Source: a virus
Length of the DNA: 24,425 nt
Virus record (IMG/VR): IMGVR_UViG_3300043434_000308
Span: 1 to 24,425 of that record
Strand: one strand, 5' to 3'
Translations under genes and position numbers: made by a program
Notes under the pieces: generated by a model
What the model was told of the DNA's origin: nothing
What the model saw: only the letters and a program-made list of their open reading frames with translations
The model's database searches: none
Shown: positions 10,118-15,393 of the stretch, piece by piece
How positions within the stretch are numbered: the first letter of the stretch is position 1
Layout: each line of letters opens with the position of its first letter

Positions 10118-10477
10118 TTAGTACCCAGCGCCGTAGTCGGCTGTGTCCATAGTGCCGTCACCAGTCAAGCCCAAACGCTTGCGGCGCAGGCTTTCCTTCA
10201 TGGCGTTTAAATGGCCGCCTTGGGTGGCGTTGAACATCTTCATGCGTTGATCAACATCGCCCTGGGCCTTGCTGGCCATGTAGCCTTGACCAAGCTGTGC
10301 AAGGGCCTGCCCGATGCCTGGCGCAACGTAGTGCTTGCCGACCATTTGGCCTTCCATTGGACTCAGTGAGTTCTTGCGGAGGGCGTCAACCATCGCTTGC
10401 TTTTTCTTCAGCTCGGCTTCTTCTGGGCGCATTTGGCCCATCTGAACCAGGTACTCAAACATCAAATCGTCATTCAT
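10118..10477 (-). CDS. Small internal virion-type protein, 119 aa
   Basis: Begins MNDDLMFEYLVQMGQMRPEE. The ATG at 10477 is chosen over the GTG at 10480, since GGAGG lies six bases before it and the ATG shares a base with the stop of the upstream gene (TGATG). The sequence is helical, with a Gly/Ala segment at about 54-68 (PGIGQALAQLGQGYMASKA) and a basic stretch ESLRRKRLGL. Proteins of this type are found before the large internal proteins in related phages. It may be a small ejected protein or an assembly factor. Function is unproven. Confidence 0.65.
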   Translation of the reverse strand: MNDDLMFEYLVQMGQMRPEEAELKKKQAMVDALRKNSLSPMEGQMVGKHYVAPGIGQALAQLGQGYMASKAQGDVDQRMKMFNATQGGHLNAMKESLRRKRLGLTGDGTMDTADYGAGY

Positions 10478-11856
10478 CACAAACCTCCGTAATTCACCAT
10501 CAGGTAGCCACTGGCGTGACGCTTGACGAGGTCAGGTCGCACCGCTTCAACTTCTTGGGCAATCACACCGCGTTGCGGCATTCCCATCATTGTGTAGTCA
10601 TAAATTCCCACGCCAATTGCGTGAGTGCCGACGCGCTTGATGTTTGACTTCAAGCGGCGATCGGAGAACATGAACGCGGCAGATCCCAGCTGTGCGCCGG
10701 CGCCAAGCAAGTTGCCGAGGCCAGCCTGCTGTGCGTTGTATGCGCCCAGCTGTGCGTCGTAGCCCATCTGAGTCGCGCCCAAGATGTTGGGCGTCTCTGA
10801 CTTGCTGGCGGGCACGAACGATGGCATCTGAGGCATGCTCACCTGCTGGCCAGACAGCAACGCGTTCATCTCGTTCAGAGACATGCCGCGGCGCTGTGCT
10901 TGCTCGGCAATCGCCTGCTGGCGCAGTTGGTTCTGCGCGTTGGCGTACTGCTGGTTGAGGCCGTACTGCTGAGAGATCGCGCTGTTCTGCGCATTCATGT
11001 TTGCCAGATCCAACGCGGAGCCTTGGCCCAGCGCCTGGTTCTGGAACTGAGCCGCGCCCAGGTTCTGGTTGAAGTTCTGCTGCTGCGCTGCGTTGCCAAA
11101 CTGGCCGCCTTGCAGGTCTTGATTGAAGGCCTGCTGCGCTGTGCCCATCTGCATGTTGTACAGGCGCTGGGCTTCGCTGCCAGCTGTGTCCAAGGCGTTG
11201 TAACGCTCGGCAGCCTGACGCTGGGCCATGTTGTTCAGCTCGCGGTCATAGCCTTCAGTGCCTGGGCGGAAGCCCATGTTGGAGAGCTTGGTCTCGAGCT
11301 GGCGCTGTTGGTAGTCATGCACCGGCTGCATCTTCTGCATGAGCTGGTTGGCCACCGTGTCGCGGTAGCTCGAGTCGAACTGAGGCAACGCAGGGTTGTC
11401 TGCTGTGTTCAAAGATGTCTGAGGAGCGCCAAAGTTGAAGCCAGTGGACAAGCCTGCTGAGTAGTCCTTCACGCCGGTGTACAAATTGCCAGGCGCGTTT
11501 GCGGACGTCAGCTGTGGCAGGTTCTGGTAATCAAATGGCTGCGAATACTCGTTTGCCACGCGACCCATGAAGCTGTTCGCAAGATCACTGCGACCACCCT
11601 GGATCGCGATCTGATCATTCAGCGCGTCCTGCAAGCCAGGTGCAAGCGTGTTGTTCTGCGTCCATTGCGTGACCGCCTGGCCAGTGGCTGGATCAGTGAC
11701 CGCCTGCGTGCCCCAGGACTGCGAACCAAACGGCGTGTTGATGACAGGCCGGTTGGCGTAGTTCTGAATGTTGGTCAGCTCTTTTGAAGCTGCCGCCTGA
11801 GTATTGGCCGCACCGAGATAATCAGGTGCTGCTGGTGCTGACGATTTCCCGCCCAT
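10477..11856 (-). CDS. Gln/Asn-rich virion protein with short C-terminal S74 (self-cleaving chaperone) domain
   Basis: 459 residues, preceded by GGAGAAGGAA. The first 390 are rich in Gln, Asn, Ala and Tyr (for example ANMNAQNSAISQQYGLNQQY) and look helical and low in complexity. The last 62 residues, from Ser398, start SDRRLKSNIKRVGTHAIGVG, include MPQRGVIAQEVEAVRPDLV and end SGYLMVNYGGL. This is the peptidase S74 intramolecular chaperone pattern: Ser398 with Lys403 has the same Ser-x4-Lys spacing as the catalytic pair of phage endosialidases, where cleavage occurs before the Ser. The domain is much shorter than the roughly 120 or more residues usual in fibres. The body does not look like a fibre and the neighbours are internal proteins, so it may be an internal or tail-plug protein. 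Confidence 0.75.
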   Translation of the reverse strand: MGGKSSAPAAPDYLGAANTQAAASKELTNIQNYANRPVINTPFGSQSWGTQAVTDPATGQAVTQWTQNNTLAPGLQDALNDQIAIQGGRSDLANSFMGRVANEYSQPFDYQNLPQLTSANAPGNLYTGVKDYSAGLSTGFNFGAPQTSLNTADNPALPQFDSSYRDTVANQLMQKMQPVHDYQQRQLETKLSNMGFRPGTEGYDRELNNMAQRQAAERYNALDTAGSEAQRLYNMQMGTAQQAFNQDLQGGQFGNAAQQQNFNQNLGAAQFQNQALGQGSALDLANMNAQNSAISQQYGLNQQYANAQNQLRQQAIAEQAQRRGMSLNEMNALLSGQQVSMPQMPSFVPASKSETPNILGATQMGYDAQLGAYNAQQAGLGNLLGAGAQLGSAAFMFSDRRLKSNIKRVGTHAIGVGIYDYTMMGMPQRGVIAQEVEAVRPDLVKRHASGYLMVNYGGL

Positions 11857-12262
11857 GTTCCTTCTCCTTGATCCAGCGGCAGTCTTCTGCCTTCATTTCA
11901 AACATCACACAATCCACGGTCTCAGCGATCTGCTTAAACCCTAGTTTGCGATTCATCCTTACAGCATCTTCCAAGTGCTTTGGTGTGAGGCCGTAGACCG
12001 CTTCCTTGCCGCATGTAATCAGCGGATATTCGAAAGCCGCACGCCAAAGCTCACGGGTCAAACTGTGCGGGGTGTCGAACGCGACGTGCATCCAGCACCC
12101 CTTTTCTGTCCACGCGTTGTATGCGACAGCAGCCCCAATTGTGCCGTCATCGCGCATCGCCGCTATCGCACGCAGGTCACTACTCCAAGGCAGGTTTGTC
12201 TTCCTGTGCATCCATTCCCAGATGACAGGACGCTCGCCTGGTTTGTCAGTAGTGAGCCGCAT
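11822..12262 (-). CDS. GNAT-type N-acetyltransferase
   Basis: 146 residues. The pattern fits a small acetyl-CoA-dependent transferase: a strand pair AIAAMRDDGTIGAAVAYNAW (about 32-51), the strand GCWMHVAFDTP, a helix LTRELWRAAFEYPL in the acetyl-CoA region, then a strand AVYGLTP and helix EDAVRMNRKLGFKQIAETVD, where NRKLGF is the usual end motif of the fold. The classic Q/RxxGxG/A loop is not obvious, so activity is uncertain. Similar genes lie among virion genes of many phages and their substrate is unknown. It starts three bases after the upstream stop (TAAAGGATG), and its 3' end overlaps the S74 gene by 35 bases. Base composition is slightly more A/T-rich than its neighbours. Confidence 0.75.
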   Translation of the reverse strand: MRLTTDKPGERPVIWEWMHRKTNLPWSSDLRAIAAMRDDGTIGAAVAYNAWTEKGCWMHVAFDTPHSLTRELWRAAFEYPLITCGKEAVYGLTPKHLEDAVRMNRKLGFKQIAETVDCVMFEMKAEDCRWIKEKEHGREIVSTSST

Positions 12263-12265
12263 CCT

Positions 12266-13798
12266 TTAAAACTCCAGACTTCCCCAGGTTTCATCAAAGA
12301 TGGCTTTGCCACCACCCGTTGTTCCGCTAGGGTTTTGAGTAGCCAGCCAGGCGTCATACGCTTGAAGCTCGTCAGGAGACAGCAGCTCTGGATAGTCGAA
12401 AGTCATTGAAGTGCTGCCGGTGTCATCTAGCGTCAGACCATTACCTACCTCAAGCGTGACGTTTGGAACCTTCGGCTTGGTCAGATCAATTTGATCTGTC
12501 GGCAATCCGGCGCCAGGCGTGCTTGTGGACGCAGTGGTGTCTAGTCCTGCAACAGAGTTGTCGATTGACGCGCCCCCACCATCCACAGCAGAGGTGATCG
12601 CGTCGCGCAACGTGTCGCCACCGCCAGTCTGGGCAGAGGTAGTAGAAGTCGTTGTGCTTGCGGCTGGAGTAGTGGCCGCCGTTGTCTGGTTCTGCGCTGC
12701 CGCATTCAAAGCAGCTGCCGCTGCGGCTTGCTTGGCCGCTGCCTCGGCATCTGCCAGAGCTTGGGCATCAGCCAATGCCTTGGCGTCAGCTGCGGCTTTG
12801 GTAGCTGCGGCATCAGCAGCAGCCTTTGCCTCTGCGTCAGCGGCTGCCTTTACAGCTGCCGCATCGACCGCAGCTGTGACGTCATCGCGAAGCGTTGTGC
12901 TGTCAGACGCTTTGGTCGCGTCAGAAGTGCCGTTCACGGTTCCTGTCGAAACCGTGCTCGTTGTGTTTGTCGCGTTGGCGTCTGTCGCGCCGGTTGTTGT
13001 GCTGCCGGCTGTGGTCGAGTCGATCACGCTTTCAATGACGTCTCGCAAAGTCGAGTCGCCATCTGTGACTGTGTCGGTGACAGTGGTGTCGTCGCTTGTG
13101 CCGCCGTCAGTGATAACGGTTCCACCACCGTCAGTGACAGCCGTGCCATCACCGTCAGTGACCACAGTACCACCGCCGTCAGTGATTAAAGTTCCGTCAC
13201 CGCCGCCCTTGTCGCCGTCGCCGCCGTCATCGTCACCGACCGTGTCACCGATCACTTTGTCTTTAATGATGTCGTCAATGACAACGTCATCCACTACGTC
13301 TTCGTCATCGACAACTTCATCGTCGATCACTTCATCGTCAATGACTTCATCGTCAATGACTTCGTCATCAACGACCTCGTCGTCAACAACTTCATCATCG
13401 ACCACCTCGTCATCGACTACTTCCTCGTCAATGATGTCGGGATAGATTAAGTCGGGGATGATGCTTGGCTCAACGTAAGGCAGCTCTGTCTCGCCACCTG
13501 GTAAAACAACGTCAGGCGCAACGTATTTACCCATGGCCAACTTGGCAGGGCTGAATGCGCCACGCGTGTTGCCCAGCTTCACATTGAGCGCTGGGCCGTT
13601 GGCCTTGTTTGCAAAGCGCGTGACTCCAGGATTTGCAGGGCCAGAGATGCGACGCAAGGCCGAGATCAAGTCAGAACGGCGCACGTCAGGCGTCGCAAAC
13701 TGAGCCTCACCGCCTTGCATCATCATTGGGACAGCAAGCTCAGGAGACGCAGCAATAAGCTGCAAAGTCTCGTCAGGTAGTTCGTATCTTGTAACCAT
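12266..13798 (-). CDS. Repeat-rich acidic virion protein (VVDDE, Gly/Asp and Ala arrays)
   Basis: 510 residues from the ATG at 13798 (GGAG seven bases before; the GTG at 13801 is less likely). No family is recognised. Order: a conserved-looking head (1-115); eight tandem E-V-(V/I)-D-D pentapeptides (about 127-167); an Asp/Gly stretch and four TDGxGT-like units (about 202-237); three copies of a TLRDxxxxxxD module (TLRDVIESVID at 250, TLRDDVTAAVD at 302, TLRDAITSAVD at 396); Thr/Ser-rich linkers; an Ala-rich helix (about 313-369); and an ordered C-terminus with PELLSPDELQAYDAWL and KAIFDETWGSLEF. It lies directly after the nozzle gene (TGATG overlap), so it is probably on or in the tail. The acidic and Asp/Gly parts could bind calcium or act as an extended spacer. 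No signal peptide. Confidence 0.8.
   Translation of the reverse strand: MVTRYELPDETLQLIAASPELAVPMMMQGGEAQFATPDVRRSDLISALRRISGPANPGVTRFANKANGPALNVKLGNTRGAFSPAKLAMGKYVAPDVVLPGGETELPYVEPSIIPDLIYPDIIDEEVVDDEVVDDEVVDDEVVDDEVIDDEVIDDEVIDDEVVDDEDVVDDVVIDDIIKDKVIGDTVGDDDGGDGDKGGGDGTLITDGGGTVVTDGDGTAVTDGGGTVITDGGTSDDTTVTDTVTDGDSTLRDVIESVIDSTTAGSTTTGATDANATNTTSTVSTGTVNGTSDATKASDSTTLRDDVTAAVDAAAVKAAADAEAKAAADAAATKAAADAKALADAQALADAEAAAKQAAAAAALNAAAQNQTTAATTPAASTTTSTTSAQTGGGDTLRDAITSAVDGGGASIDNSVAGLDTTASTSTPGAGLPTDQIDLTKPKVPNVTLEVGNGLTLDDTGSTSMTFDYPELLSPDELQAYDAWLATQNPSGTTGGGKAIFDETWGSLEF
13298..13425. repeat. 15-bp tandem repeat array coding for V(V/I)DDE pentapeptides
   Basis: Eight in-frame units of 15 bp on the minus strand, with silent differences (GTC/GTT, GAT/GAC, GAA/GAG), so it is an aged but still regular array. 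Period 15 keeps the frame when units are gained or lost. Confidence 0.85.
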
Positions 13799-15393
13799 CA
13801 CATCACTCCACCTAATTCAGTCATCACGTTGCAGGACGTGAAAACTGTTTGTGGCAGGCCGCGCACCTTCATGCGCAGCGAGCCGTAATACCCAAGGCCC
13901 GCAGTGCCTGCCCACGCCTGGTAGGTGTTCGTTCCCACCCAGGTCGATGTGTTCCAGATACCTTCATCCCACGCGGCGCCATCGCCCTTCGTGAAATATG
14001 GAGAGCCGCCAACGGCACTGAGCTGGAACTGCGTGTTCATCTGCAGCTTGATCGCAGGGGCAGCTGTCGCGATAAATGTCGGGCGCACCATGCCGAACTT
14101 CTTAAGCTGCGCGGGCGTGTTGAACGCCTGGAACGACGTTTGCACGTCTCCCTCGACGTAGTTGCCGCCGTCGTTGTTGGCGTCCGCGCCATCCTTGTCG
14201 CCCGTCAGGCCTTCGCAGACGTAGCCGTCAATCGTGCCGAACAAGAGGCGGCCACCGATGATTCCTGCGCAGCGCATCGGAATGCCCACGAACTGGCACC
14301 AGGCGCCTGTGATCACGTTCATCGCGAACTGGCGATATGTGCCGCCGTCAGCCGGCAGCTTGATCACCATGACGTCAGAAGACGGCACGACGAAGACGTC
14401 GAAATACTTTTCGTTGATTAGCTTGCGCACCAGGGGCGCAAACACCGACTGAATCTTTGACGCGGGGCCGATCTGCTGGTCTTCGCTGTACTGGCCATTG
14501 ACCAGCTTGGACATGGGCACCAGGCCCAGTTCGGAGACGATCATCACGTCACCACCAAAGGGCGTGAAGAACGTGCCGTGCTTTGGCACAGGGCCGACGT
14601 ACCAGACGCCCTTCAGGCTGAATGTGTCTGCGCTAGTGGGGTCTGTGCCCTGCCACACGCCGATGTCGCCTTCAGTGCCGACGACGATCAAGAAGTCATC
14701 GATCGAGAAGCCGGCGTCCATCGTCCAGTTGATCAGCGCGGAGACATAGCCGCCGTTGCGCAGGGATGAACCCATCGCAAACGACGTGCAGGCGCCTGTG
14801 ACGACGTCCACAGCGTCTAGGTAGTAGACGTTGGAGTCACCCTCTGCGGTGAACCACACGCGCTGCTTCCACACGGCCACGGTGCGCACGTTGGTGGGCA
14901 GGCCAGTAGTTGTCGCTGTGCGATCAACCCAGCCAGTGCCGGTGCTGTAAGTCCAGTAGCCAGCGCCTGGCGATACGGCCAGCAGGAACGTGTCACCGGG
15001 CGTGGAGAACTGAGTAGTCCACCACTCGTCTGCATCGCTGCCAGTGCCCGTCACGACCTCCACAGGAGCGCCAGGATCGGTCACGTCATAGATGTTGCCG
15101 TTGGCTGCAATGAAGCGCTTGTCGTCAGCATTGACGGGCGCCTTGTAGCCAAAGACAGATTCGATTGGCGCTTCAAGGGCTGTGGTGTATGAGAACCAGC
15201 CTTTGCGCAGCTCCACGCCTTGCTGGCGCGGGATGAAGTTGGTCAGCGTTAGCGCGTCCAGAGGGGACATGGCCGCGATCGGGTCGCGGAAGTTCAGGCC
15301 ACCGGTGGGTGCAGGGATAACCTGCATCTGCGCTGTTTGTGCGGCGGCAGCCCTTCTAGGCGCCTTGAAGGGGGCAAGAGGGATCAAGGGCAT
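13798..15393 (-). CDS. Tail nozzle / DNA-stabilisation beta-propeller protein (P22 gp10 or T7 gp12-like)
   Basis: 531 residues, preceded by GGAG and starting just after the adaptor stop. The early segment TGGLNFRDPIAAMSPLDALTLTNFIP is a well-known start for tail nozzle proteins of short-tailed phages. Next come repeated strand-rich blades with aromatic ends (GNIYDVTDPGAPVEV, YWTYSTGTGWVDRT, RVWFTAEGDSNVYYLD, VGTEGDIGVWQG, GGRLLFGTIDGYVCEG), as in the beta-propeller of T7 gp12 and P22 gp10. The C-terminal part has a cluster of AP and WG segments and ends FTSCNVMTELGGVM. It should form a hexameric tube below the adaptor that closes the head exit and leads DNA into the cell. The family assignment is strong; the exact P22 or T7 type is open. 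Confidence 0.88.
   Translation of the reverse strand: MPLIPLAPFKAPRRAAAAQTAQMQVIPAPTGGLNFRDPIAAMSPLDALTLTNFIPRQQGVELRKGWFSYTTALEAPIESVFGYKAPVNADDKRFIAANGNIYDVTDPGAPVEVVTGTGSDADEWWTTQFSTPGDTFLLAVSPGAGYWTYSTGTGWVDRTATTTGLPTNVRTVAVWKQRVWFTAEGDSNVYYLDAVDVVTGACTSFAMGSSLRNGGYVSALINWTMDAGFSIDDFLIVVGTEGDIGVWQGTDPTSADTFSLKGVWYVGPVPKHGTFFTPFGGDVMIVSELGLVPMSKLVNGQYSEDQQIGPASKIQSVFAPLVRKLINEKYFDVFVVPSSDVMVIKLPADGGTYRQFAMNVITGAWCQFVGIPMRCAGIIGGRLLFGTIDGYVCEGLTGDKDGADANNDGGNYVEGDVQTSFQAFNTPAQLKKFGMVRPTFIATAAPAIKLQMNTQFQLSAVGGSPYFTKGDGAAWDEGIWNTSTWVGTNTYQAWAGTAGLGYYGSLRMKVRGLPQTVFTSCNVMTELGGVM

Follow-up and report, generated by a model that had tools for sequence, protein, structure and literature searches.

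A short conserved motif unites acidic, variable proteins encoded directly behind the tail nozzle gene of Mx8-like podoviruses

What might a short-tailed phage encode directly behind its tail nozzle gene when the product is a strongly acidic chain built largely from repeats? The question is raised by a reading frame of 510 residues (12266..13798, minus strand; ATG at 13798, stop at 12266) in a stretch of 24,425 nucleotides, referred to hereafter as the window, which is the entire 24.4-kb virus contig (IMG/VR record IMGVR_UViG_3300043434_000308). The window holds the structural operon of a podovirus on its minus strand, in the order terminase, portal, scaffold-like protein, capsid, adaptor, nozzle, the gene in question, a GNAT-type acyltransferase, an S74 virion protein, internal proteins and tail fibre (gene roles assigned in part from the gene order of Mx8 and phiGT1). 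The S74 protein (10477-11856, phrog_6121) ends in a Peptidase_S74 intramolecular chaperone domain and is placed in the ejection block, not among the fibres. At the left end, 24-518 of the plus strand encodes an apparent tyrosine integrase C-terminus, suggesting a temperate phage. The window DNA has no near relative among cultured phages. In the search for hosts, nozzle alignments were scanned twice against about 85,000 genomes, by short patterns that can miss, and gave no relative.

The position of interest, which we term the slot, is bordered upstream by the gene at 13798..15393 (minus strand), whose product is related to Mx8 p52, is a member of phrog_5107, and is predicted to be a beta-propeller by its fold and a tail nozzle (tubular tail B) by its phage context. 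The nozzle model matched the folds of the VP1 tail (Z 22.6), Pan3 (20.4), P22 gp10 (19.6), a gp10-gp26 entry (8eap, 19.4) and Pam1 (19.1), scores that propellers from unrelated proteins almost equal; HHalign of the window nozzle against the single P22 gp10 sequence detected no similarity. Relatives of this nozzle in cultured phages are found in Mx8, Mx9, phiGT1, pCB2047-A/C, EBPR podovirus 2, the RHph phages and BUCT555. The label "amidase" that PHROGs and RefSeq attach to phrog_5107 (here 13798-15393; Mx8 p52, L002:8944-10554) looks wrong, the predicted fold being a tail-nozzle-like beta-propeller. Downstream, the slot is closed by the GNAT-type gene (11822..12262, minus strand), which occupies the same place as the phiGT1 gene equated by its annotators with P22 gp14 and T7 IVPA; the correspondence with gp14 rests on that annotation, and HHalign of the window GNAT against a single P22 gp14 sequence gave no match.

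To ask how general this arrangement is, we drew on 80 IMG/VR loci gathered with the nozzle protein as query, which yielded a sample of 65 distinct slot proteins from Mx8-like podoviruses, the window's own included; the 58 complete ones span 235-672 residues, with a median of 367. Occupancy of the slot is optional: the GNAT gene follows the nozzle directly in nine references (Mx8, ctMlz233, BUCT555, EBPR podovirus 2, pCB2047-A, RHph_Y25, phiGT1, ppBjS10J-1 and a gut phage contig) and in three of the 80 loci (L051, L058, L069), the other readable loci having a gene in between. Where present, the slot gene begins at the same spot in 61 of 64 loci, its start codon overlapping the nozzle stop by one base (TGATG in the window), which argues that the two genes are probably translationally coupled. 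The initial annotation had called the protein tail-linked and placed it right after the nozzle; as a statement about the genome this holds, for the neighbor is a propeller nozzle by fold and the start is coupled at those 61 loci, while adjacency to the nozzle gene falls short of proving association. One locus (L040:2167-3755) has a single nozzle followed by two tandem slot-type genes, each with its own core motif. Two further contigs, 3300043444_000155 (42.8 kb; L008/L035) and 3300047554_000338 (71 kb; L097/L036), each bear two related structural blocks roughly 30 kb apart, with different slot proteins and with nozzles 93% and 76% identical to that of the window; these are either tandem prophages or joined assemblies.

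All 65 slot proteins have one element in common, a motif of ~40 residues with the consensus YxSxLIxALRxxxxxxxxNPGVxxxxNxxN (residues 39-79 of the window protein, 13562..13684, minus strand; a candidate anchor), which the initial annotation had overlooked. A profile built from the 56 sequences found by pattern detected the remaining nine, out of sample, at E-values of 1e-6 to 2.5e-22, and when run against the 8,317 reading frames of all loci it matched slot genes only, including the second gene of the tandem pair. A search that started from the motif region of one member, rather than from the nozzle, led in 15 of 15 loci to a gene directly behind the nozzle gene. The motif begins anywhere from residue 5 to residue 438, so that variable material can evidently be added on either side of it. 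Acidity is the other shared property: every slot protein is net negative, at −11.7 per 100 residues on average and between −20 and −2.1 individually, compared with means of −2.7 to +1.3 per 100 residues for the neighboring structural gene families, and the core motif itself is slightly positive, averaging +2. The window protein has the core motif, lies between nozzle and GNAT and possesses an acidic body, as the family does, and the family is, from these sequence comparisons, well supported as a unit.

The family appears undescribed in Pfam, NCBIfam, PHROGs, the PDB and 50,697 phage records; as only the short motif is constant, similarity searches with whole proteins overlook it. The complete window protein had no match in Pfam at E-values up to 1, and hence none to the RTX, DUF4214 or pentapeptide-repeat models; its PHROGs matches were of low complexity only, with no tape-measure profile among them, and it matched no protein of cultured phages. 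The motif consensus reached chance level against cultured phages (E 3 or worse, no cultured carrier found), and the motif profile gave a best E of 0.1, over 11 residues, against the PDB. Searching with the two ends of the protein, as had been proposed at the outset, likewise recovered no known family, the matches being confined to the corresponding slot gene of uncultured relatives.

The window protein is an elaborate individual case. From its N-terminus (all features on the minus strand), it comprises an element YELPDETLQLIAASPEL (residues 5-21, 13736..13786) that is conserved only in window-type relatives, the core motif, a second conserved stretch AFSPAKLAMGKYVAPDVVLPGGETELP (residues 81-107, 13478..13558), an acidic region (residues 111-190, 13229..13468) and four TDG octad units (residues 206-237, 13088..13183). 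An insertion of about 150 residues follows (about 245-398, 12605..13066), then a unit that we denote LRD, DTLRDAITSAVDG (12578..12616), and a C-terminal module KPKVPNVTLEV...FDYPELL...GGGKAIFDETWGSLEF (residues 441-510, 12269..12478). The insertion, which carries the Ala-rich helix and two extra LRD units (13016-13054 and 12860-12898), is missing in 16 of 16 close relatives aligned; LRD elements stand at residues 249, 301 and 395 of the window protein versus once in those relatives, the unit at 12578..12616 being the copy held in common. The three kinds of repeat originally described (eight pentads, four TDG octads, the Ala helix) are indeed present in the reading frame, to which the threefold LRD element, previously unremarked, adds a fourth.

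The acidic region supplies −36 of a net charge of about −71 for the whole protein within 80 residues, and contains eight tandem E[VI][VI]DD pentads (residues 126-165, 13304-13423). In 20,000 shuffles of the region's own composition no more than two pentads arose in a row. Codon differences among the eight copies, counted over pairs of copies that are not independent of one another, comprise 75 synonymous and 15 nonsynonymous changes (the latter Val/Ile only); all five third codon positions vary and second positions never do. With the differences lying almost entirely at synonymous sites, this pattern indicates that the pentads are kept by selection on the protein; recent DNA slippage was rejected as their source on the same grounds. 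A reading frame on the opposite strand (12519-13445, plus) was rejected as a true gene, since the variability falls at third positions of the minus-strand frame. The Gly/Asp repeat of the octads has a period of 8, not the 9 of RTX, and does not match the RTX model.

An AlphaFold model of the window protein, computed as a monomer on a shallow alignment of 17 relatives, predicts that the chain is mostly disordered, with pLDDT below 50 for 296 of 510 residues. Its sole confident part is a continuous Ala-rich helix (residues 298-376, 12671..12907, pLDDT mostly 96-98), within which residues 309-371 are 60% Ala; the helix that had been read from the sequence is thus predicted as well, at a length of 79 rather than 57 residues. 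The "ordered ends" fared less well: both ends are conserved among relatives, yet their pLDDT is about 40-66 apart from short helices; with an alignment this shallow, they may still be weakly ordered. Nor does the model favor the regular acidic rod or calcium-filled spiral once envisaged for the pentads, which are predicted as coil (pLDDT about 46-49) and have no RTX match.

Beyond the motif, the slot proteins diverge sharply. Compared over their full length, they share as little as about 20% identity with the window protein; nozzles of the same loci retain 64-95% and adaptors 73-97%. Their bodies are made up of acidic pentads, PED, PVVDP, DTTDD, DVG or PPDL repeats, poly-Pro/Gly stretches and several C-terminal tails; three relatives (L006, L027, L029) contain genuine RTX nonapeptides (PF00353, E 2e-15 to 8e-10), five carry DUF4214 repeats (PF13946, best E 1e-55), and the modules further include one collagen-like match and poly-Gly. 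In four relatives (L007, L014, L019, L063) the C-terminus consists of a module GEFVLNKEAAKAIGYELLNRLN (GEFVLN), weakly similar to tape-measure C-termini (E about 1e-4), that has been swapped onto slot proteins. Comparison across relatives, which the initial annotation had suggested for the repeat numbers, shows that the repeats are not the stable part, most relatives having quite different bodies. Its remark that no described family has this order of repeats stands as far as Pfam, NCBIfam, PHROGs, the PDB and cultured phages are concerned; the order itself is unique to the window protein and is not shared by the family. What deserves attention is the slot and its motif, the architecture seen in the window being one instance.

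Body type and nozzle similarity are, as judged from these sequences, partly uncoupled. One locus (L020) has a nozzle 92% identical to that of the window and a different body, closest to that of L031; another (L035) has a nozzle only 76% identical and a slot protein of the window's type; in a third (L008) the nozzle is 93% identical and the downstream GNAT only 60%. The slot has the look of a site prone to recombination.

Several features together point to a tail-tip appendage: where the gene lies, its overlap with the nozzle gene, its absence from some phages, and a constant part joined to swappable bodies with modules of exported proteins. Our preferred reading, tentative and at somewhat less than an even chance, is by analogy that the slot protein is an accessory virion protein of the tail tip, at the position of the P22 and SU10 needles, with a conserved anchor and an interchangeable extended body. 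Mx8-like podoviruses would then carry the slot gene as an optional virion gene whose translation is coupled to that of the tail nozzle. The motif (residues 39-79) would probably anchor the protein to the tail, with the nozzle as the likeliest point of attachment, and the extended acidic body (pentads, octads and the Ala-helix rod here; RTX, DUF4214 or Pro/Gly elsewhere) would stick out from the tail, evolving through the exchange of modules in the manner of needles and fibres. We infer that the protein is in the virion, attached to the nozzle and exposed; any part that it plays in adsorption or in plugging the channel is likewise inferred. We count against the tail-tip reading that the motif profile shows no similarity to P22 gp26 (i-E 0.82, score −2.9), that the monomer model predicts no coiled-coil shaft outside the Ala helix unique to the window protein, that the motif can lie as deep as residue 438, unlike an N-terminal needle anchor, and that a single slot type can accompany widely differing nozzles, with no sign of tight nozzle specificity. 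A more specific version, decidedly unlikely as it stands, is that of a polyelectrolyte needle in place of a coiled-coil one: the motif would cap or plug the nozzle, and a polyanionic chain drawn from an exchangeable pool of modules would project from it, calcium-responsive in some relatives, unfolded while in the cytoplasm, where calcium is low, and stiff once outside.

The genes that follow the slot (GNAT, S74 protein, large internal proteins) belong to an ejection block, which would suit an internal virion protein carried inside the head or the tail lumen and expelled before the DNA, its flexible acidic body threading the channel to act in the periplasm. Disordered chains should thread easily, and the weakly tape-measure-like GEFVLN module of four relatives (E about 1e-4) fits as well; however, RTX and DUF4214 bodies and hypervariability better suit an exposed protein, and a polyanion would be improbable beside packed DNA unless neutralised, and we regard this placement as unlikely. 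Exposure could instead be on the head or fibres, the protein serving there as an adhesin for environment or host; the accessory nature of the gene and the RTX, DUF4214, poly-Gly and single collagen-like modules agree with this, but the fixed place and the overlap are with the nozzle gene, not with capsid or fibre genes, leaving it quite unlikely.

Conservation of acidity despite sequence turnover, together with the overlap with the nozzle gene, might also be expected of a tail-assembly chaperone or temporary channel plug, acidic, disordered, and lost from or minor in mature virions. Such a protein should have no need of RTX or DUF4214 repeats or of a helical rod, and related phages manage without the slot gene; we consider this role very unlikely. 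The same low probability attaches to a non-structural accessory protein that lies in the late operon by chance, for instance an acidic decoy or DNA mimic directed against host defences. For the mimic, which had been raised from the start, the net charge (about −71 overall, half of it in the acidic region) is the sole argument; the late-operon position and nozzle overlap speak against a non-structural protein of this kind, as do the absence of a pentapeptide-repeat match, the prediction of coil rather than a DNA-like surface, and an acidic pattern that itself differs among relatives. MfpA/Qnr-type mimics, moreover, are built from A(D/N)LXX pentads, whereas the hydrophobic residues of E[VI][VI]DD are adjacent rather than two apart.

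Several other known systems resemble parts of the slot proteins. RTX (PF00353) calcium-binding repeat proteins, which are exported (PMC3034196), have counterparts in three slot relatives and not in the window protein; likewise, DUF4214 (PF13946) repeats occur in five relatives and are absent from it. The literature yielded nothing relevant on DUF4214 or RTX in phage virions, or on disordered acidic tail proteins. TolA-like rods resemble the Ala-rich stretch in composition and in the long predicted helix (TIGR02794, E 7e-7, below its cut-off), a likeness limited to that compositional stretch and found in none of the close relatives. The tape-measure C-termini to which the GEFVLN module is weakly similar (phrog_37649, phrog_24) have no equivalent in the window protein, which lacks the module, and slot proteins are short.

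The tail-tip reading we favor draws its closest parallel from the needles. The needles and fibres described for short-tailed phages are rigid and folded. Needles of the P22 type (gp26; Sf6 and HS1 types) and SU10 gp18 are likewise encoded directly behind the nozzle, and the position is empty in some podoviruses: P22 (NC_002371) reads gp10-gp26(needle)-gp14, the window gene similarly lying between the nozzle and the gene at the gp14 position; SU10 has nozzle gp17 and then needle gp18; and T7, without such a needle gene, passes straight from gp12 to gp13, like the empty slot of Mx8. In P22-like needles the conserved N-terminal part is the plug and binds the virion; the tips of the different types are unrelated to one another and influence the kinetics of ejection (PMC3741392). 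A conserved virion-binding part with exchangeable bodies or tips is the same layout as that of the slot proteins, and a constant anchor with a variable body is in this sense a variant of known phage tail parts. The differences lie in the material: needles are trimeric coiled coils anchored at the N-terminus, whereas the window protein is, by monomer prediction, mostly disordered apart from one 79-residue helix and is strongly acidic, and the motif of slot proteins is not always N-terminal. Within this clade, the gene position of the needle seems to be used for a mostly disordered, acidic, hypervariable protein held together by one short motif, which offers a handle for finding and testing the family; if present in the virion, it would be an exchangeable tail part of an unfamiliar sort that probably bears on adsorption or genome ejection, set where P22 and SU10 place a folded needle.
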